This document shows positions 3,571 through 61,587 of a DNA stretch of 64,000 nucleotides, in pieces (the first letter of the stretch is position 1; each line of letters begins with the position of its first letter). The notes beneath the pieces were generated by a model, which worked only from the letters and a program-made list of their open reading frames with translations, was not told the DNA's origin and did not search any database. A program made the position numbers and the translations under genes. The stretch is from a virus. The stretch covers positions 1 through 64,000 of the IMG/VR virus record IMGVR_UViG_3300046692_000069. One strand, written 5' to 3'.

Positions 3571-3804
3571 TTGTTCACAACATCAACCATCATCGCCGCC
3601 GCCTTCGCTTATGGGGCAATCTATCAGCAGACTCTTGACGGGTTGCGTCTTGAATTCAAGTACACCACGACGCCGAAGAAATGGCATTTGCCTATCTCCG
3701 TCTTCTTTGCCCTGATCTGGCCAGTAACTTGGATCATTGGCTACGCGGCTAATGCTATCACGCTTGTTCGTCGCAGCATGAAAACTCCGCGCATCATCGG
3801 TTAA
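3571..3804 (+). CDS. Small membrane protein, 77 aa
   Basis: A TTG start at 3571 is supported by AAAGGAATCACC. Hydrophobic segments lie at about residues 3-18 and 42-63 (FFALIWPVTWIIGYAANAI), with a basic tail RRSMKTPR. It is likely in the inner membrane with two passes. Function is unknown. Confidence 0.7.
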   Translation: MFTTSTIIAAAFAYGAIYQQTLDGLRLEFKYTTTPKKWHLPISVFFALIWPVTWIIGYAANAITLVRRSMKTPRIIG

Positions 3805-9998: not shown

Positions 9999-10037
9999 TT
10001 GACCTTTGGCGCCGCTCATGCATAATGGGCGGCGTTA
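9999..10037 (+). promoter_or_regulatory. Promoter overlapping a hairpin
   Basis: TTGACC (9999-10004) and TAATGG (10023-10028), 18-base spacer. An 8-bp stem (10010-10017 with 10027-10034) places the -10 in the hairpin loop and right arm, followed by TTATTC. Confidence 0.5.
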
Positions 10038-10304
10038 TTCGTTTAGGACATACCTATCGATGGGGCGCATAAATTTGGTGCGGCCTTAACCATTATCACC
10101 CATTATTTCCATTAGCCGAGCAACAAACTAACCCCATATGCGTTTGGAATAATCACCCAAAACCAATGCGTTGCGCGCATATCACTCACGTATATTAGCA
10201 TTTAGCGCACACACAGTACTCTAGGTTGTGGAAAAAATGCACACATATACACCATATATATATATATTAGCACATTTTTTCGTGTTTTATCCAATGAAAT
10301 CATT

Positions 10305-10694
10305 GCACAGTTAAATTTTAGGCAGTGAGTTGCACACTTTTTAATCAGTGCTAAGTCATTGATATTTTCTCTCGAAACCACGAAATGCACAGTAGCGCAC
10401 ACTAACAATCTTGCAACTGTGCAGAAATTATTTTTCGTTTGCACAGTCAATTACCCCTACTGTGCGGAATATTATTCTTTTGGGTGTTTTTGCTGTTTTT
10501 TGCTATTTCTTACAAACTACCAAAGCATTGATTTATAAGGTTTTTCGTTATATATAGTTCTTCTTATATTTAAGCCGCACAGTAGCGCACAGTAGCCATA
10601 TTTTCACTGTGCAAAAGTTGCGCACAGTAGGCCATTTATCTCTACATCCCCTCTAATCTCTATCTGTGCTATCTCCCTCTAAGGGGATGCACAG
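10305..10694. repeat. GCACAG motif array
   Basis: Forward GCACAG begins at 10305, 10387, 10441, 10577, 10587, 10622 and 10689. The reverse form CTGTGC begins at 10417, 10460, 10607 and 10664. Several are extended to GCACAGTAG. Eleven copies in 390 bases is far above chance. Confidence 0.8.
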
Positions 10695-10715
10695 TAGAGA
10701 TAGAGAGTAGAGGGG
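10648..10715. repeat. 18-bp imperfect inverted repeat
   Basis: Left arm 10648-10665 and right arm 10698-10715 match at 17 of 18 positions. A GCACAG motif lies just inside each arm, and a small CCCT/AGGG stem is nested between them. It could be a cruciform, an RNA hairpin or a protein-binding site. Confidence 0.7.
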
Positions 10716-10748
10716 TAGAGTAAATATCGAGAGAGCGTGAGTGTGCAG

Positions 10749-10777
10749 TTGACAGGAGTCGAAAAAGACATTACGGG
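10749..10777 (+). promoter_or_regulatory. Probable sigma-70-like promoter
   Basis: TTGACA (10749-10754) with a 17-base spacer to TACGGG (10772-10777), upstream of the gene at 10805. The -10 is weak. Confidence 0.4.
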
Positions 10778-10804
10778 TAGTGGAGATGAAAAGGAGAAAT
10801 TGAC

Positions 10805-11197
10805 ATGAGCCATACGAGAAGCGCCCGCAATGCAGACGGTCAGTTCGCGGTCACGGTTTGGGATTATGAGGGCAACCTATTTGCGTTCGGTGAATTCCGT
10901 TCCGTCGAGGCTGCTGATGCATTTGCCCATGAGGAAGAGCGTCGCATGATATTTGCCACGCAAATGGCTGGAGACGTCTATAGTGATGAATGCGCCGAGT
11001 TGACCGATGAGGATCTTTTTGAAGGAATTGGGCGAATGAAGAAATATGCAGACGTAAGGGTAACCTTGATCGTATCGTTTGAAGATGATGGCGAGAACGA
11101 TCTAAAGGATCAGGCTCACGACGCGGCTATCTTTGCCGGCCTTCCCAATGGCGCATTCGACGTCGAAGTCATCGGCGAAGTTCGCGACACGGAGTGA
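10805..11197 (+). CDS. Hypothetical protein, 130 aa
   Basis: AAGGAGAAATTGAC precedes the ATG. It is acidic, with an N-terminal beta part (FAVTVWDYEGNLFAFGEF) and a second strand-rich part at about 80-130. No family is recognised. It is the first gene after the GCACAG block. Confidence 0.74.
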   Translation: MSHTRSARNADGQFAVTVWDYEGNLFAFGEFRSVEAADAFAHEEERRMIFATQMAGDVYSDECAELTDEDLFEGIGRMKKYADVRVTLIVSFEDDGENDLKDQAHDAAIFAGLPNGAFDVEVIGEVRDTE

Positions 11198-22522: not shown

Positions 22523-22569
22523 TTGACTTAAAGGGCTGGGAGCTGTAATATGCTCTCAGCCCTTTTTTT
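22523..22569 (+). terminator. Strong terminator with an embedded promoter
   Basis: A 14-bp stem with one G-U pair (22530-22543 with 22552-22565) and an 8-base loop is followed by a T-run: an intrinsic terminator for the capsid gene. TTGACT (22523-22528), a 17-base spacer and TAATAT (22546-22551) form a near-consensus promoter whose -10 fills the loop. Confidence 0.85.
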
Positions 22570-22585
22570 ATTAACGGAGGTATGC

Positions 22586-24055
22586 TTGGCTAAGGTTATT
22601 ATTGACGGCGTTGAATACGCGCCCGTTTCCAGCGTGTCGGCGGCCAAGATTGGCATTGTGATAACTACGCATAATCGGCACGATGTACTTAAGCGTTCGC
22701 TAGAGCATCATCTCCAGCACCTTCCGACCGGCGCAGTTGTCTTCGTTGTTGACGACGGCTCCGCCGCTCCTGTGTCAGTTGACGACAGTCGAGTAACGGT
22801 CGTTCGCAACGAAAGGAGCATGGGAATCGTCTACTCTAAAAACAGGTCGTTGTCCCTACTCATGGATGCGGGATGCGATCACCTTTTTCTGTGGGATGAC
22901 GATGCGTACCCACTCACGAACGATTGGCATGTGCAATATGTCGAAAGCGGAGAGGCACATCTCGCCTATCAGTTCCTAGATCTAGCCGGCCCTAGAAAGC
23001 TAAAGGACATTGCCGTCATTCATCGCGATTCGAAGCATGTTGCCTATACGGGTCAGCGCGGAGTTATGCTCTATTACAAGCGCCACGCCATCGATAAAGT
23101 TGGTGGTTTTGATTCGATATACGGACGCGGGATGTATGAGCATTCCGATTTGGCGATGCGAATTTATCAGTCCGGCCTAAACTCTTGGGCTTTTGCTGAT
23201 GTCGTCGGCTCAAATGAGCTTATCCACTCGATGGATGAGCACGAAGAGGTGGAGCGTTCTGTTGCCATGGGTGATCGTCAAGCCCTTGTGGATCGAAACG
23301 TTAAGGTGCACAACGCGCGGCGGGATAATGGTTATTCAGGTTATGCTCCTTATGACGTGAAGCCCAACGTCGTATTGACGTCTTTTCTTACGTGTCATCC
23401 CGATCCGCAACGTGGCATCCGCATGGAAGCAAAGGCTTCGATGCTGTCGGAGTGGTCAAGCAGCATTAAGGGCGCCGCTGCCATTGTGTTGGCTGATGAG
23501 CTTGACGAAAATCCGCCCTACGCATCCAGAGTAAAGGTTGACTCTCTGGAGGGAAACGTATATTTCATTAGGTGGCTGCATGTGTACAATTGGCTCCGGA
23601 GCAATCCTAGCGTTGGCAAGGTGTTTGTCACCGATGGGACTGACGTTGTCATGCTTCGTGAGCCTTGGGAGCATATGACATCAGGTAGCCTATACGTCGG
23701 CTCAGAGGCCAAGACTCTCGATGACGCATGGATTACGTCTAATCACGCGGCATCGCATTTGAAGGCGTTCCTAGAGGCCAATAAGGGCAAGACAATGCTG
23801 AATGCCGGCATCGTTGGCGGCGACAGAGAAGATGTCATGGCGTTCGCGCACGATATCATCAAGGACTACTATTTCACCATATCGCGCCGGTTCTGGAAAA
23901 CGGAGCCGCAGGGCAATGAGGTTGGGGACATGGCGACGTTTAATTACGTGGCCTATACCAAGTGGGCCAATAAGATCATGACTGGTCCTCTAGTACATAC
24001 CGTGTTTAAGACTGAGGGCGTAGGCAAGGAATATGCTTGGTTTCGCCACAAGTAA
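22586..24055 (+). CDS. Two-domain glycosyltransferase (GT2 plus second GT-A-like domain)
   Basis: 489 residues, TTG start with ACGGAGGTATGC. Residues about 20-240 are a family-2 glycosyltransferase (IVITTHNRHDVLKRSLEH, then FVVDDGSAAP, then a LFLWDDDAYPL metal-binding DDD). Residues about 265-489 resemble a second nucleotide-sugar transferase fold (VFVTDGTDVVM and LNAGIVGGDRE). It sits between capsid and portal genes, right after a terminator-promoter module. It probably transfers sugars to a virion protein or to a surface molecule. Host lipopolysaccharide modification is the alternative. Confidence 0.82.
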   Translation: MAKVIIDGVEYAPVSSVSAAKIGIVITTHNRHDVLKRSLEHHLQHLPTGAVVFVVDDGSAAPVSVDDSRVTVVRNERSMGIVYSKNRSLSLLMDAGCDHLFLWDDDAYPLTNDWHVQYVESGEAHLAYQFLDLAGPRKLKDIAVIHRDSKHVAYTGQRGVMLYYKRHAIDKVGGFDSIYGRGMYEHSDLAMRIYQSGLNSWAFADVVGSNELIHSMDEHEEVERSVAMGDRQALVDRNVKVHNARRDNGYSGYAPYDVKPNVVLTSFLTCHPDPQRGIRMEAKASMLSEWSSSIKGAAAIVLADELDENPPYASRVKVDSLEGNVYFIRWLHVYNWLRSNPSVGKVFVTDGTDVVMLREPWEHMTSGSLYVGSEAKTLDDAWITSNHAASHLKAFLEANKGKTMLNAGIVGGDREDVMAFAHDIIKDYYFTISRRFWKTEPQGNEVGDMATFNYVAYTKWANKIMTGPLVHTVFKTEGVGKEYAWFRHK

Positions 24056-25062: not shown

Positions 25063-26472
25063 ATGAGTGAAAGAAGCGGCTTTATTCGCCGCCTTAAGAG
25101 AATTACGTCTGGCTTGCTTTCCCCGCCTTCTTCGCGCGGTGGATGGCTTGGCCCCATACTGGAATCTTATCCCGGTGCGTGGCAGCAGAACGTTGAGATT
25201 TCCAACGACACACTAACGTCTGTTGGCGCTGTATTCGCGTGCGTTACGCTTATCGCTTCGGACATTTCAAAGCTTCGAATGAAGCTGACAAAATTCACGA
25301 ACGGCGCGTGGGTGGAGGCCACTAATACGGCCTACTCGCCAATGCTGAAGCGGCCAAATAAAAACCAGAATAGAATCCAATTCCTTGAGGCTTGGATTTT
25401 GTCGAAGTTGCTTCACGGCAATACCTATGTACTAAAGGTGCGGGATGCCACGGGTCACGTTCGCGGCCTAAAGGTTCTTGATCCGCGTCTAGTGCAGCCG
25501 CTGGTTTCGCCAGACGGAAGCGTGTTCTATAGCATCAACACGGACAATTTTAACGGCATTCAAGATCCGCCAGAAGCTATTCCGGCTAGCGAGATCATTC
25601 ATGATCGTTACAATTGCCTGTTCCATCCACTCGTTGGGATTTCGCCGCTCTATTCGGCTGGCCTAGCGGCTCGTCAGGCATGGCATATCCAGAATAGCCA
25701 AACCCTGTTGTTTGCCAACGGCGTTAAGGCCCCCGGCATCCTTACGGCTCCGGGCGCCATCAGCGACGAAATCGCTGAGCGACTCAAGACTGATTGGGAA
25801 GCCAAATATGCTGGCTCCAAGGGTATTGGCAAAGTCGCCGTGCTTGGCGATGGACTAGAATTCCAAGCGATGTCTACAAGCGCCGTCGATGCCGAGCTTA
25901 TCAAACAGCTTGATTGGACCGGTATTTCCATCTGTTCTGCCTTCCACGTCCCGCCATTTATGATTGGCATTGGTTCGGCCCCGCCGTATACCGACATGGC
26001 GTCGGTTAACCTTCAGTACTATTCGCAGGCTCTACAGCACCTCATTGAGGCCGTCGAGCTTTGTGTTGATGAAGGCGTTGGCTTGGCGGATGACATGGGT
26101 GTCGAGCTTGACACGAATGGCTTGCTTCGCATGGATGCCAAGACTCAGGCTGAAACGATCACAACTTACACCAAGTCCGGCATCATGAAGCTGAATGAGG
26201 CGCGTCGGAAGATTGATCTTCCTGATATGGATGGCGGCGATTCCGTTTACCTCCAGCAACAGAACTTCAGTCTTGAGGCGCTGAATAAGCGCGACAGCTC
26301 AGATGATCCGTTCAAGACTGGCGGCAGCTCGAAAACCACACAGCCGTCGTCGTCGCAGACTACGGACCCTCAAAAGTCTATCCGTAAGTCAATTGAGCGC
26401 AGCGAGGATGATGCGATTGAGTATCTGTCCATTCTCGTAAACAAGATGGAAGGATTCGAACTTGAATATTGA
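25063..26472 (+). CDS. Portal protein (HK97 family)
   Basis: 469 residues, ATG 25063 with GAGGAGCAAAAC. An in-frame TTG at 24985 would cross the terminator hairpin and is rejected. The pattern VGAVFACVTLIASDISKL, a LLHGNTYVLKV segment and WTGISICSAFHVPPFMIG are characteristic of the dodecameric HK97-type portal, the vertex through which DNA enters and leaves. The C-terminal 60 residues are Ser/Thr/Gln-rich and disordered. Its place after the capsid gene is unusual, since portal normally precedes protease and capsid. Confidence 0.93.
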   Translation: MSERSGFIRRLKRITSGLLSPPSSRGGWLGPILESYPGAWQQNVEISNDTLTSVGAVFACVTLIASDISKLRMKLTKFTNGAWVEATNTAYSPMLKRPNKNQNRIQFLEAWILSKLLHGNTYVLKVRDATGHVRGLKVLDPRLVQPLVSPDGSVFYSINTDNFNGIQDPPEAIPASEIIHDRYNCLFHPLVGISPLYSAGLAARQAWHIQNSQTLLFANGVKAPGILTAPGAISDEIAERLKTDWEAKYAGSKGIGKVAVLGDGLEFQAMSTSAVDAELIKQLDWTGISICSAFHVPPFMIGIGSAPPYTDMASVNLQYYSQALQHLIEAVELCVDEGVGLADDMGVELDTNGLLRMDAKTQAETITTYTKSGIMKLNEARRKIDLPDMDGGDSVYLQQQNFSLEALNKRDSSDDPFKTGGSSKTTQPSSSQTTDPQKSIRKSIERSEDDAIEYLSILVNKMEGFELEY

Positions 26473-27766
26473 AACCATTAAAAAGCTTGAAGATGTATTC
26501 TCCAAGCTGACAAATCACGTCAAGGCAGCGTTGCAGCCAATGGCGCAAGAGCTTCGTGATATGAAGGCGTCGATTGCAAGCGTCGTCAAGCATCAAGAAG
26601 ATTTCAAGGCTGAAATCAAGTCGTCTGACTCGATTTTTCGCGATGAGATCACGGCCATTGAATTGGTTGCTCATGATGCCACGGCGACAGCGAAAGACGC
26701 CAAGGAAACTGCAGAAGCAGCCGTCCAGCTTTGGCATGATCACGAATCCGGATGGAATAAAAAGTTCGATAGTGCCGTGCAGCATTATGCCGATACGTCC
26801 AGCGGCGTGATCAAGGATGTATTGCCTCATGAGCTTGGCCACGAAGTTAAGCTGATCGGTGGGAAGTCGTTTGTTATTAAGAACGGCGTCGATGGCAAAG
26901 ACGGGGAAAAAGGCGCGGATGGCATCAACGGAGATAACGGCGTCGATGGCAAAGATGGCAAAGATGGCGACAATGGCGTCGGAATCGTAGCTATTGACCT
27001 TGCTCAGGCCGATGACGACGTCACGATTGCGGGCCTTCTTTCGAATGGCGAGACATTCTCTTTGCCTTTCCGGATTAAGAGCGGTATTGACGGCGAAGAT
27101 GGCCGTGACGGTATCGACGGCATTCGCGGCATTGATGGGGTTAATGGCGTCGACGGATCCGATGGCAAAGACGGGCGGGATGGCATCGACGGCAAGGACG
27201 GACGCGATGGCGTGGATGGCAAGGATGGATCTGACGTTGTTGATGGCTTCATCGACAGAGACAACAATCTTGTCCTAACTTTCGCCAACGGCAAGGCAAA
27301 AACCCTTGGTGTGGTGGTAGGTCGCGGCGGCGAAAAAGGCAAAGATGGCCATAACGGCGCCGATGGCTTCGACGGCAAGGACGGCCGCGACGGCGCGGAC
27401 GGCAAGGATGGCTTTGGCCTTGATGATCTGAGCATGGAGCACGATGGCGAGCGCGGATTCTCATTCGTATTTCGCTCTGGCGATCTTGAGAGGCGCTTTG
27501 ATTTCCGCCTTCAGGTTCCTATCTATCGCGGTGTGTACGGCGCTGGTAAGGCGTACGAGTCTGGAGACATGGTTTCTCACTTCGGCGCCGTATACCACTT
27601 CAATGGTGGCGACAAGGCTCCGGGAATTGATACATCTTGGACGCTTGCGGTTGCCAATGGCCAACGCGGCAAGACTGGCGCCAAGGGTGATAATGGCAAA
27701 CCGGGTAACGACGGCCGCGACGGTCGCGACCTTACCAAAATTATGCCAGATGGGAGTAAGTATTAA
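26462..27766 (+). CDS. Collagen-like fibre protein with C-terminal carbohydrate-binding module
   Basis: 434 residues, TTG start with AAGGA overlapping the portal end by 11 bases. Residues 1-125 are helical and coiled-coil. About 140-175, 205-265 and 285-320 are Gly-X-Y collagen-like repeats rich in GKDG and GRDG, which form triple helices. About 355-395 (YRGVYGAGKAYESGDMV, later WTLAVANGQ) resembles a family 5/12 carbohydrate-binding module, and a last Gly-X-Y run ends the protein. It is probably a trimeric head or neck fibre that binds sugars. A tail-fibre role is possible, but the position beside the portal favours the head. Confidence 0.82.
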   Translation: MNIETIKKLEDVFSKLTNHVKAALQPMAQELRDMKASIASVVKHQEDFKAEIKSSDSIFRDEITAIELVAHDATATAKDAKETAEAAVQLWHDHESGWNKKFDSAVQHYADTSSGVIKDVLPHELGHEVKLIGGKSFVIKNGVDGKDGEKGADGINGDNGVDGKDGKDGDNGVGIVAIDLAQADDDVTIAGLLSNGETFSLPFRIKSGIDGEDGRDGIDGIRGIDGVNGVDGSDGKDGRDGIDGKDGRDGVDGKDGSDVVDGFIDRDNNLVLTFANGKAKTLGVVVGRGGEKGKDGHNGADGFDGKDGRDGADGKDGFGLDDLSMEHDGERGFSFVFRSGDLERRFDFRLQVPIYRGVYGAGKAYESGDMVSHFGAVYHFNGGDKAPGIDTSWTLAVANGQRGKTGAKGDNGKPGNDGRDGRDLTKIMPDGSKY

Positions 27767-29596: not shown

Positions 29597-29678
29597 GAGT
29601 CCCTATGGGCGTTGATACATAGTTCTTAAGAGCAATATCTGAAACTGCACAGTATTGAAATTTCCAAAGGAGAAAAGT

Positions 29679-30188: not shown

Positions 30189-30767
30189 ATGAGAAGTGGA
30201 CATTTGGAGGCGGAATTTGCAGATGGTGAATACGTCTTTAAGTTGGGATGGGGTCAGCTAGTTGAGCTGCAAGAAAAGTGCAACATTGGGCCGCACGCAC
30301 TGCTTAGGCGCCTTGAGGCTGGCCTATGGATGGTTGATGACATCGCTGAAACGATTAGGCTCGCGCTAATCGGTGGCGACCCAGTCAACATGCAGCCGAT
30401 CAAGGCAAAGAAGCTAGTTGAGCGCTACGTCAAGGATAGGCCGCTTACTGAAAACATTTCGTTGGTGCGCGTAATTCTTATGGTCGCGCTGTTTGGGGGC
30501 GAATCCGTAGAGCCTGTCGACCAGAAGAAGAAGACGGAAGAAACGTCGAGGGCCGTTGCCGATGAAGATGGAAAGATGAATTTCCAAGATCTTTACGGCA
30601 TTGGTGCCGTGCTTGGATATACACCAGCGCAGGTTAACGAGATGTCGGTTTGGCAACTGATGGTCGCGTATAACGGCTACGCCAAGGCGAATACCCCAGA
30701 TGATGGATCGACCATCACGGAGGAGGAGGCGAAAGACCTCTATGAATTCGTTCAGAATATTGAGTAA
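30189..30767 (+). CDS. Tail assembly chaperone (GTA gp10-like plus C-terminal domain)
   Basis: 192 residues. Residues 1-105 match the gene-transfer-agent gp10 type chaperone (EAEFADGEYVFKLGWGQL, later ETIRLALIGGDPVN). After an acidic linker, residues 130-192 (YGIGAVLGYTPAQVNEMSVW) resemble the small second chaperone domain. In many siphophages the two are made by ribosomal frameshift or as two genes. Here they are one continuous frame. The protein coats the tape measure during tail assembly. Confidence 0.82.
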   Translation: MRSGHLEAEFADGEYVFKLGWGQLVELQEKCNIGPHALLRRLEAGLWMVDDIAETIRLALIGGDPVNMQPIKAKKLVERYVKDRPLTENISLVRVILMVALFGGESVEPVDQKKKTEETSRAVADEDGKMNFQDLYGIGAVLGYTPAQVNEMSVWQLMVAYNGYAKANTPDDGSTITEEEAKDLYEFVQNIE

Positions 30768-30781
30768 TAACTAATCTTAAT

Positions 30782-30851
30782 AAGGCGCAAGTTGATGCCT
30801 GACCGATAATTGCTAATTCAGTGGTATCGGGCTGCACGCATGCGCCTTTTT
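30782..30851 (+). terminator. Large hairpin terminator enclosing a promoter-like sequence
   Basis: Outer stem AAGGCGCA/TGCGCCTT (30782-30789 with 30841-30848) ends in TTTTT. An inner stem CCGATA/TATCGG lies at 30803 and 30825. TTGATG (30792) and TAATTC (30814) with a 16-base spacer lie inside the arms. Confidence 0.65.
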
Positions 30852-58879: not shown

Positions 58880-59287
58880 ATGGCATTTGGAATACCTAGT
58901 GGTATCGGAGAAAACCTAGAGCTGCCATCTAATTGCTGGTTATGCGGCGCTGGTCACGCTACAGGGATCGGCGCCAACGGCGATTGGGGCAAGCGCTATG
59001 GGAAGGACACTATCGAACCGAAGTGGCTTTGTGAAGAATGTAAGCATCTATGCGCGCGGGTTAAAGAAATGAAGCATTCTGATTTGTGGGAAGTGCACGC
59101 CCTTGATGGTGGAGTCGAGGCCGTTGGTGAATACCTTGATACTATCGGTATATTCAACCTTGAGCACATGGATGGCCTTCAGGCTCGCATGATGGTTAAG
59201 GCCGCATGGCAGGGGTGCGCTAGAAAGCTGCGCAAGGACTTGGAAGAATCGTACGGCGAGCTGCCTCCGAAAGGGAGAAAGAAGTGA
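58880..59287 (+). CDS. Zinc-binding hypothetical protein, 135 aa
   Basis: ATG 58880 is preferred to 58859 for spacing from GGGGGTG. CWLCGAGHATG (about 20-30) and WLCEECKHLC (about 50-59) hold a four-Cys zinc site. A C-terminal helical part precedes the primase gene, which starts in its stop codon. It may be an accessory of the replisome. Confidence 0.68.
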   Translation: MAFGIPSGIGENLELPSNCWLCGAGHATGIGANGDWGKRYGKDTIEPKWLCEECKHLCARVKEMKHSDLWEVHALDGGVEAVGEYLDTIGIFNLEHMDGLQARMMVKAAWQGCARKLRKDLEESYGELPPKGRKK

Positions 59288-61587
59288 AGTCAAAAGAAAA
59301 GACCCAAATGCACATTCTTGCGGAAGCCTACGCGGGCAAGCCGTGGGAATGGGACATCTTTCCTGCTCGCGAAGAGGATCGTCGTGAATGGGATGAGATG
59401 CGCGGCGAAGAGGTGATGAAGCTTGAAAAGGCTCCATATCCAGCGCGTGGGCTTCGCGATGCCAAGCGCAGAGAGGCCGCCATTGAGGCTTGGTGGGGCC
59501 GTCTTCATCCGAATGCACTTGTTGCCCTGCCTACCGGTAGGGCGAATGACGTTTGGGTTCTTGATATTGACGTGCCGTCTAAAGACCACAAGGACGATGG
59601 CCGAGAATGGCTTGCTGAGATGGAAGATGAGCACGGCCCTCTGCCGCATACGCGAATTGGCGTAACGGCTGGCGGTGGCTTGCATTACTATTTCAAGTAT
59701 GTGGAGGGAATCGCGAATGGCTCCGGCCTAAGTTCTGGCCTTGGTCGTGGCGTTGACGTGCGCGGCGAGGGCGGATATGTGGTCGCGCCGGGGTCCATCA
59801 TGGCAGATGGTCGTTTCTATGAATGGAAAGACGATAACGCTCCGTTCGCCGACGCTCCGGATTGGCTGCTTGATATCGTTGTCAAGCGCAATGAGCGGCC
59901 TGAAGAGCCTCGCCAGCGCGCTTCTTCAGGATCAAACACCGATTATCGCCCATCGGGAGGAAACGACGCCTACGCGCGCACTGCGCTCGATGCTGAATGC
60001 CGAGACCTTGCGAGCATGGGTGAAGGTAGCGGGCGTGGCTTTGCGCTGAATAAGGCCGGCTTCAAGCTGGGGTCACTCGTTGCATCCGGGCACTTGTCTT
60101 ACGACGAAGTCTATGGGGCGCTTCTTAATGCGGCCCACGATAACGGCCTAGTCAAGACGGATGGTATTCGCGAGGTCGAGGCCAAGATTAGGCGCGGGCT
60201 GCAATCTGGTGGCAGAAAGCCACGCGATGTGCCAGAGGGCGACTATCAGGAAAACAATCTGCGCCTACGTGACTTGAAGAAGGTTATCGAGCGCGGCCTT
60301 GAGAAGGGAAAAGACAGGGAGGATAGCGAGCGGGGAAACATCGACGCCGATGAAGACGAATCGGCGGATGACGAGGAAGAGCTTGCAATCAAGATCACCC
60401 CGTTCAAGTACGTGGCTCCTAAAAACCTAAAGCGCCGGGAGTTCGTCTATGATGGCCATTATGTACGCAAGTACGTTTCAGTTACCATCTCCCCCGGAGG
60501 CGTTGGCAAGACGTCGCTTAGCATTGCGGAAGCACTAGCAATGACTAGTGGCCTCAATCTGCTTGGCTATGAAATTCCCGACAAGAAGCGCTTTAACGTG
60601 TGGCTATTCAACGCAGAAGATCCGCGCGACGAACTAGAGCGCCGAATCATGGCGTGCGCTGAATATTTCGGGCTTAAGCCAGATGACTACGAGGGCCGGC
60701 TGTTTGTCGATACTGGCCGCGAACAGGATCTTGTCATCATGCGCGAGGACAAGAAGAGCGGGCTAGTGACGGCGGAGCCTATCCTTGAGGCTGTTGTTCA
60801 GCACATGAAGCGCTACAAGATCGACGTCATGATTATCGATCCGTTCGTCTCTACTCACGGCGTCAATGAGAACGACAATGGCGCTATCGACAAGGTTGCT
60901 AAGCTCTGGTCACAGGTGGCAGATTATACGAACTGTGCCGTAGAGATCGTGCACCACGCCAAGAAGACGGGCGACAAAGCCGTTACGGTCGAGGATGCGC
61001 GCGGGGCGGTTGCGCTCTTGTCTGCCGCTAGATCGGCCCGCGTACTTAATCCTATGACGGATGCCGAGGCGAAAGAAGCGGCAGTCAAGCTTGAGGATCG
61101 TCGTTCATACTTCAGCATTGAGATGGGCAAGGTCAACCTCCTGAAGAATCCGGGCAAGCGCAAATGGCGCAAGCTTGAGTCTGTCCCCCTCGGCAATGGT
61201 ACGGGACGCGGTGGAGTCATCGGTCAGGATCATGCCGGCGTTGTGACTGAATGGCTTTGGCCAACAGCTAGCGAAGTGGCTGAGGAGCTTGACGAGAAAA
61301 TTGAGAAGCTGATTATCATCAATCTTCGCAACAAGCTCTACAAGATGAGCCAGCGCAGCTCCGACTGGGCCGGCCATATGATCGGGCAGCTACTCGGTAT
61401 CGAGACAGACAAGGATAGCAAGGACAACATTAATCGTTGCGAAAGCATCCTCCGGTCCTTGCATGAGCAGAAAAAGATTGCTAAGGTGCAAGAGGCTGTG
61501 GCACGGCGCACGGATAAGCAGTGGTTTTGGACCACTCCAGATGTGGCAATGAAGATGTTTGAAGATGCAAAGAAGGGTGATGAATGA
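59284..61587 (+). CDS. PrimPol-helicase replicase
   Basis: 767 residues, GTG start with GGGAGAAAGAA. Residues about 65-205 form a bifunctional primase-polymerase (PrimPol) domain: LDID with Asp94 and Asp96, GGGLHYYF with His134, and VDVRGEGGYVVAPGS (158-172). Residues about 250-305 are a helical primase C-terminal part. Residues about 375-600 form a RepA/RecA-like helicase with Walker A GGVGKT (405-410). The C-terminal 130 residues look winged-helical. It probably starts and drives phage DNA replication. A separate DNA polymerase was not seen in the window. Confidence 0.92.
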   Translation: MKSKEKTQMHILAEAYAGKPWEWDIFPAREEDRREWDEMRGEEVMKLEKAPYPARGLRDAKRREAAIEAWWGRLHPNALVALPTGRANDVWVLDIDVPSKDHKDDGREWLAEMEDEHGPLPHTRIGVTAGGGLHYYFKYVEGIANGSGLSSGLGRGVDVRGEGGYVVAPGSIMADGRFYEWKDDNAPFADAPDWLLDIVVKRNERPEEPRQRASSGSNTDYRPSGGNDAYARTALDAECRDLASMGEGSGRGFALNKAGFKLGSLVASGHLSYDEVYGALLNAAHDNGLVKTDGIREVEAKIRRGLQSGGRKPRDVPEGDYQENNLRLRDLKKVIERGLEKGKDREDSERGNIDADEDESADDEEELAIKITPFKYVAPKNLKRREFVYDGHYVRKYVSVTISPGGVGKTSLSIAEALAMTSGLNLLGYEIPDKKRFNVWLFNAEDPRDELERRIMACAEYFGLKPDDYEGRLFVDTGREQDLVIMREDKKSGLVTAEPILEAVVQHMKRYKIDVMIIDPFVSTHGVNENDNGAIDKVAKLWSQVADYTNCAVEIVHHAKKTGDKAVTVEDARGAVALLSAARSARVLNPMTDAEAKEAAVKLEDRRSYFSIEMGKVNLLKNPGKRKWRKLESVPLGNGTGRGGVIGQDHAGVVTEWLWPTASEVAEELDEKIEKLIIINLRNKLYKMSQRSSDWAGHMIGQLLGIETDKDSKDNINRCESILRSLHEQKKIAKVQEAVARRTDKQWFWTTPDVAMKMFEDAKKGDE

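Follow-up and report, generated by a model that had tools for sequence, protein, structure and literature searches.

A clustered GCACAG repeat array in a phage genome as a probable replication origin, with the C-terminal domain of the primase-helicase as its candidate reader

The window, i.e. the whole 64-kb stretch of DNA analysed here, belongs to a viral contig of 70,357 bases that has 127 identical bases at both ends and therefore forms a circle of about 70.2 kb. A 127-base identical end repeat is found both in this contig (G000) and in G001, and both look closed, either circular or circularly permuted. All clear genes of the genome are on the plus strand. Between a gene cluster ended by a terminator-like hairpin and a new run of genes lies a non-coding block with the following features.

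10007..10037, plus strand: terminator-like hairpin ending the upstream gene cluster
10026..10804, no strand: AT-rich non-coding block of about 780 bp, the proposed origin region
10207..10212, plus strand: iteron, GCACAC variant
10239..10244, plus strand: iteron, GCACAC variant
10305..10310, plus strand: iteron GCACAG
10332..10337, plus strand: iteron, GCACAC variant
10352..10364, minus strand: exact IHF consensus TAAGTCATTGATA; its element CTAAGTCATTGAT is also in G001, at the matching place
10387..10392, plus strand: iteron GCACAG
10397..10402, plus strand: iteron, GCACAC variant, 10-bp step from 10387
10417..10422, minus strand: iteron GCACAG
10441..10446, plus strand: iteron GCACAG
10460..10465, minus strand: iteron GCACAG
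10521..10533, minus strand: exact IHF consensus CAAAGCATTGATT
10577..10582, plus strand: iteron GCACAG
10587..10592, plus strand: iteron GCACAG, 10-bp step from 10577
10607..10612, minus strand: iteron GCACAG
10622..10627, plus strand: iteron GCACAG
10640..10720, no strand: long imperfect hairpin with a pyrimidine arm followed by a purine arm; equivalents in G001 and X2_26
10664..10669, minus strand: iteron GCACAG, left side of the hairpin stem
10689..10694, plus strand: iteron GCACAG, right side of the hairpin stem
10741..10746, minus strand: iteron, GCACAC variant
10805..11197, plus strand: first gene 3' of the block, 130 aa
12034..12630, plus strand: VRR-NUC-like nuclease gene, a conserved neighbour of the array in relatives

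All eleven GCACAG copies (7 forward and 4 reverse, 10305-10694) announced by a sequence-only reading of this DNA were found. The AT-richness it described is also clear, since the lowest-GC 300-bp stretch of the genome is at 10201 (0.35 vs 0.522 overall) and the array region has a GC content of 0.35-0.41. Its 10-base step at 10577/10587 is present, and a second pair with the same step (10387/10397) appears when the GCACAC variant is counted. The statement that no gene lies on either strand holds in substance, with a mechanical minus-strand ORF of 82 aa with a TTG start (10202-10450) overlapping the array. The motif, in turn, proved to be wider than GCACAG: allowing GCACAC gives 16 sites over about 540 bp (10207-10746), with the core [CT]GCACA[GC]T[AT][AG].

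GCACAG occurs 29 times in the window, 11 of them within 390 bp. Shuffled versions of the window have a mean of 36 copies, which means that GCACAG is not generally abundant in this genome and that its clustering is local. About 0.46 copies would be expected in the 780-bp block against the 11 observed, and the maximum was 4 in 5000 runs of a first-order Markov model. The density elsewhere is therefore low, the other 18 copies being solitary; the one at 29647, which the sequence-only reading took (at about 29646) for a possible distant site, has nothing special among them and is not supported as such a site. When all 6-mers were compared, only GCACAG and GATGGC reached 11 copies per 400-bp window, and the GATGGC/GACGGC cluster is due to the collagen-like coding repeats of the gene at 26462-27766. 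All 6 copies of GCACAGTAG in the window are inside the block. The exact pair GCACAGTANNGCACAGTA is present in 19 viral contigs, with up to 4 sites together, and none of these contigs has a related primase or VRR-NUC, so the motif alone is no marker. The block thus contains multiple short repeats in non-coding AT-rich DNA, as in iteron origins.

Two side observations concern genes of the head region. The one at 26462-27766 belongs to the head cluster and encodes long collagen-like G-x-y repeats (DGKDGRDG...), while a glycosyltransferase-family gene (phrog_1579, 22550-24055) stands in an unusual place, between the major head protein and portal-like genes.

The block also contains 2 of the 3 exact IHF consensus sites of the genome (P about 0.004 for at least 2, in composition-matched simulations). 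The long hairpin has a folding energy of -25.4 kcal/mol as single-stranded DNA (z -6.4), and its stem includes two opposed GCACAG copies; no T run follows it, so it is not an ordinary terminator. The block has two DnaA-like boxes, at 10227 and 10608, no more than chance would give; the latter overlaps an iteron. The GC skew does not switch at the block, but with all genes in one orientation it carries no information here.

The array region, used as a query for near and distant DNA matches in the phage collection, returned no relative. The first gene after the array led to one distant related locus, without an array, and Prim-Pol patterns from the window had no match in viral_contigs. The nearest relative found, G001 (IMGVR_UViG_3300047469_000054), is collinear with the window and has, at the matching place, a 690-bp AT-rich gap with a repeat of its own, GCACTTTT. 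The IHF consensus element CTAAGTCATTGAT is common to both, a second IHF consensus is present, and the hairpin of the gap has the shape of the window hairpin with a different sequence. A relative of the same gene order thus keeps the array at its site, with the motif changed. Rhizobium phage RHph_X2_26 is also collinear and has a related primase; we found a hairpin at the same place, just before the VRR-NUC gene, and no clear array. In Rhizobium phages 16-3 and RHph_X2_25, the space separating the Prim-Pol and VRR-NUC genes contains GCGTGACA or CGTGACA, 13-16 times and in both orientations; in 16-3 the array motif is GCGTGACAA, at about 56.2 kb. Arrays of differing motif at one site in relatives indicate that the letters change and the place is kept. 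The array is not annotated as an origin in the 16-3 and RHph_X2_25 records, and neither a 16-3 origin nor RHph_X2_26 came up in literature searches.

The window VRR-NUC-like product has a weak Pfam match (E 0.074) and 39-43% identity to its relatives. With a VRR-NUC alignment as query, 110 loci were fetched (79 viral and 31 genome), mostly from Rhizobiales phages or prophages, the named genome hosts being mostly Rhizobiales too. In the 36 loci with enough sequence, the best 7-mer per 400-bp window in the 2 kb before VRR-NUC had 5 to 19 copies, while among the downstream controls one locus had 5 copies of a 7-mer and none had more. Many of the 110 loci thus have an array next to VRR-NUC, and most of the strong arrays lie directly 3' of the Prim-Pol/RepA-like helicase gene. 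Many survey loci hold only 3-5 copies, which are weak individually. The motif types include CGGGACAA, GCGTGACAA, CCGGACA, ACCGTGCA, CTTACGCA, GGTGGATA, GACGAAAG, CGTTCCCA and CCGTGCA, and the gap of L104 has ACTGTGC, the same as in the window. The gaps form more stable hairpins than coding controls do (33 loci, -24.5 vs -17.0 kcal/mol, P 6e-7), although the gaps are usually less GC-rich.

Some other repeats were observed in these loci. A second recurrent word, (A)ATACAACC(TGATA), is found in the gaps of many prophage relatives (L104 at 3712-3760, L096, L112, L059, L070 and others) and is absent from the window block. L075 has 11 copies of GCTCCAC about 1840 bp before VRR-NUC, and L129/L131 have an array of 7-9 copies of TAGGAAA.

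The sequence-only reading had named no known binding protein. The comparison with relatives points to a candidate; in the window phage about 19 kb separate its gene from the array, which it adjoins in 16-3.

59284..61587, plus strand: Prim-Pol, RepA-like (AAA_25) helicase and C-terminal winged helix, the proposed initiator
61294..61533, plus strand: C-terminal winged-helix domain (residues 671-750, predicted structure), the proposed iteron reader

The N-terminal domain of this protein is a Prim-Pol. Its middle domain shows sequence homology to RepA, the helicase of RSF1010 (1g8y, E 5.8e-9, profile positions 393-607), and on this basis belongs to the RepA helicase family. For the C-terminal domain, modelled alone, a winged helix of three helices and a beta hairpin is predicted with good confidence (pLDDT 88.8, pTM 0.79). 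The full-length model was poor over the helicase (pTM 0.34), so we used only the C-terminal domain, remodelled alone. In Foldseek this domain is most similar to winged-helix DNA-binding regulators, though not closely to any; since no match had E < 0.001 in Foldseek or Z >= 8 in VIA-align, the fold supports the term winged helix only, and not a family.

Motif families were assigned by us from enriched words. Among 29 distinct loci, similarity of the primase-helicase predicts a shared motif family with an AUC of 0.94 for the C-terminal 110 residues and 0.91 for the first 330, and since both halves are inherited together these values alone cannot single out the C-terminus, for which the swap cases are needed. 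Similarity of the adjacent VRR-NUC gives 0.55 in the same loci. In these sequence comparisons the motif follows the primase-helicase, not the VRR-NUC nuclease. As an example, the VRR-NUC of L104 is 92% identical to that of 16-3, yet L104 has a window-type primase-helicase and GCACAGT sites.

A natural swap is found in L096 and L103, with primases 96% identical over the first 330 residues and 26% over the last 95, and with the motifs ACCGTGCA and GGTGGATA, respectively. L090 and L097 have the C-terminal type of L103 and also its motif, GGTGGATA. Conversely, in L069/L088 and L096/L139 the N-termini are only 53-55% identical, the C-termini are similar and the motif is the same. These cases support a C-terminal domain that determines the origin motif, and suggest the tail end of the primase-helicase as the reader of the repeats. 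The C-terminus of L105 is only about 26% identical to that of L079, yet both have the CGGGACAA motif, so whole-domain identity is an imperfect predictor. In its recognition helix L105 retains FQRA, like the rest of the CGGGACAA loci; FQRA goes with CGGGACAA in L069, L079, L086, L088, L095, L105 and L110, FNRA with GCGTGACAA in L085 and RHph_X2_25, FTRA with CCGGACA in L133, and FVRV with CATACA in L114. In these few cases one residue of the presumed recognition helix seems to go with the motif, which we take as a lead only.

The sequence-only reading proposed iterons of a replication origin or an operator cluster, and the former is favored by the comparison with relatives. We consider it likely that the block is the replication origin of the phage, with GCACA[G/C]T iterons bound by the C-terminal winged helix of its own primase-helicase, a binding supported by the covariation and the natural swaps. 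Several copies of the protein would bind the opposed iterons through this domain, probably helped by IHF bending the DNA at two sites. By analogy with RSF1010 and pRN1, the iteron-bound protein would then load or assemble its hexameric RepA-like helicase, and the ring would open the AT-rich DNA. Strand parting would expose the hairpin, where the Prim-Pol domain may start a primer. A single protein would thereby do the work of RepC (iteron binding), RepA (helicase) and RepB' (primase) of RSF1010. Points against this reading are the distance between array and initiator gene in the window phage, the hairpin of RHph_X2_26 that comes with no clear array, the low copy numbers of many survey loci and the L105 exception.

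An operator cluster, in which a transcription regulator (perhaps the primase-helicase C-terminus itself) binds the repeats and controls the early genes from 10805, would agree with a block placed between a terminator and the start of a gene run, with sites in two opposed orientations and with winged helices being common in transcription regulators. However, the motif tracks a replication enzyme and not a repressor, 16-3-like phages have the array behind the primase gene and not before it, and the number of promoter-like matches in the block does not exceed chance. In addition, the C-repressor operators annotated in 16-3 (35.6-36.5 kb) are away from its array at 56.2 kb. We see this explanation as improbable, while a role in transcription control may exist alongside the origin function. 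Only slightly less plausible is an origin at which the repeats are recognised by a different initiator, whose gene lies near that of the primase-helicase and is inherited together with it. Such linkage can produce the same covariation, and the second recurrent word TACAACC in some gaps is not accounted for; against this, the motif of L096/L103 changes with the C-terminus while the first 330 residues are 96% identical, and it is in that C-terminal domain that the winged helix is predicted.

Repeat arrays and hairpins of phages also occur at packaging or end-processing sites (pac/cos) and attachment sites (attP). The annotated cos (60186-60195) and attP (30539-30798) of 16-3 are away from its array, the former by 3.6 kb, which together with the repressor operators counts against such roles of the equivalent array; moreover, the window array is 7 kb before the terminase genes, and the 70-kb genome has no tyrosine integrase (PF00589) as would be expected with an attP, making this a very unlikely explanation. 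We give still less credit to a centromere-like partition array of a phage able to live as a plasmid: short-repeat arrays in non-coding DNA mark parS/parC as well, but no ParA/ParB-like gene was found near the array among the genes scanned, and the motif covaries with the primase-helicase.

Some known systems share parts of the proposed origin. The phage P4 alpha protein acts at an iteron origin and resembles the protein proposed here in being a fused primase-helicase initiator with a repeat-bearing origin. P4, mentioned in PMC4234260 and PMC7145576, has a Toprim-type primase (PMC4234260), unlike the Prim-Pol of the window phage. In RSF1010, RepC binds the iterons, RepA unwinds and RepB' primes at stem-loops (PMC4234260). 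The block resembles its oriV in having iterons and a stem-loop, together with a RepA-fold hexameric helicase (1g8y match, E 6e-9). It differs in that one fused protein replaces three separate ones, and in that the iterons, at about 8-10 bp, are short, face both ways and vary between lineages. ORF904 of pRN1 has a Prim-Pol, an SF3 helicase and a C-terminal winged helix, and needs a stem-loop downstream of its gene (PMC4234260). The Prim-Pol, the winged helix and a stem-loop conserved in shape and not in sequence are shared with the window phage, the stem-loop being essential in pRN1, whereas pRN1 has no iterons and its helicase is SF3. In SaPI Rep and SCCmec Cch2, the helicase reads downstream iterons via its C-terminal domain, and SaPI5 Rep and Cch2 carry a D5-type Primase_Cterm helicase (PMC7581432). 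Relatives of the window phage are similar in having short iterons directly 3' of the helicase gene and a proposed C-terminal reader; the window helicase is of RepA/RecA fold (AAA_25), fused to Prim-Pol, and not of the D5/Primase_Cterm or DUF927 type of SaPI Rep/Cch2. A further likeness is to 16-3 and RHph_X2_25, which also combine an array, a VRR-NUC gene and a Prim-Pol, there in the order Prim-Pol, array, VRR-NUC, with the array adjoining the primase gene and with a different motif, GCGTGACAA.

We are evenly divided on a broader reading, in which phages and prophages forming a large, mainly Rhizobiales family would use one fused Prim-Pol/RepA-fold helicase/winged-helix initiator with a swappable C-terminal reader. 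Domain exchange would then alter the origin motif, and origin specificity would evolve as a modular code that might be readable from the recognition helix. The motifs in this series are GCACAGT, GCACTTTT, GCACGGT, GCGTAAG, GGTGGATA, CGGGACAA, GCGTGACAA, GACGAAA and others. An origin and its reader are predicted for rhizobial-type phages, a little-studied group to which the model phage 16-3 belongs; the 16-3 record has no origin annotation. The proposed initiator would link the three-protein RSF1010 system with single-protein initiators, and the series of naturally occurring pairs of reader domain and DNA motif would make initiator-origin specificity directly testable by domain swaps.
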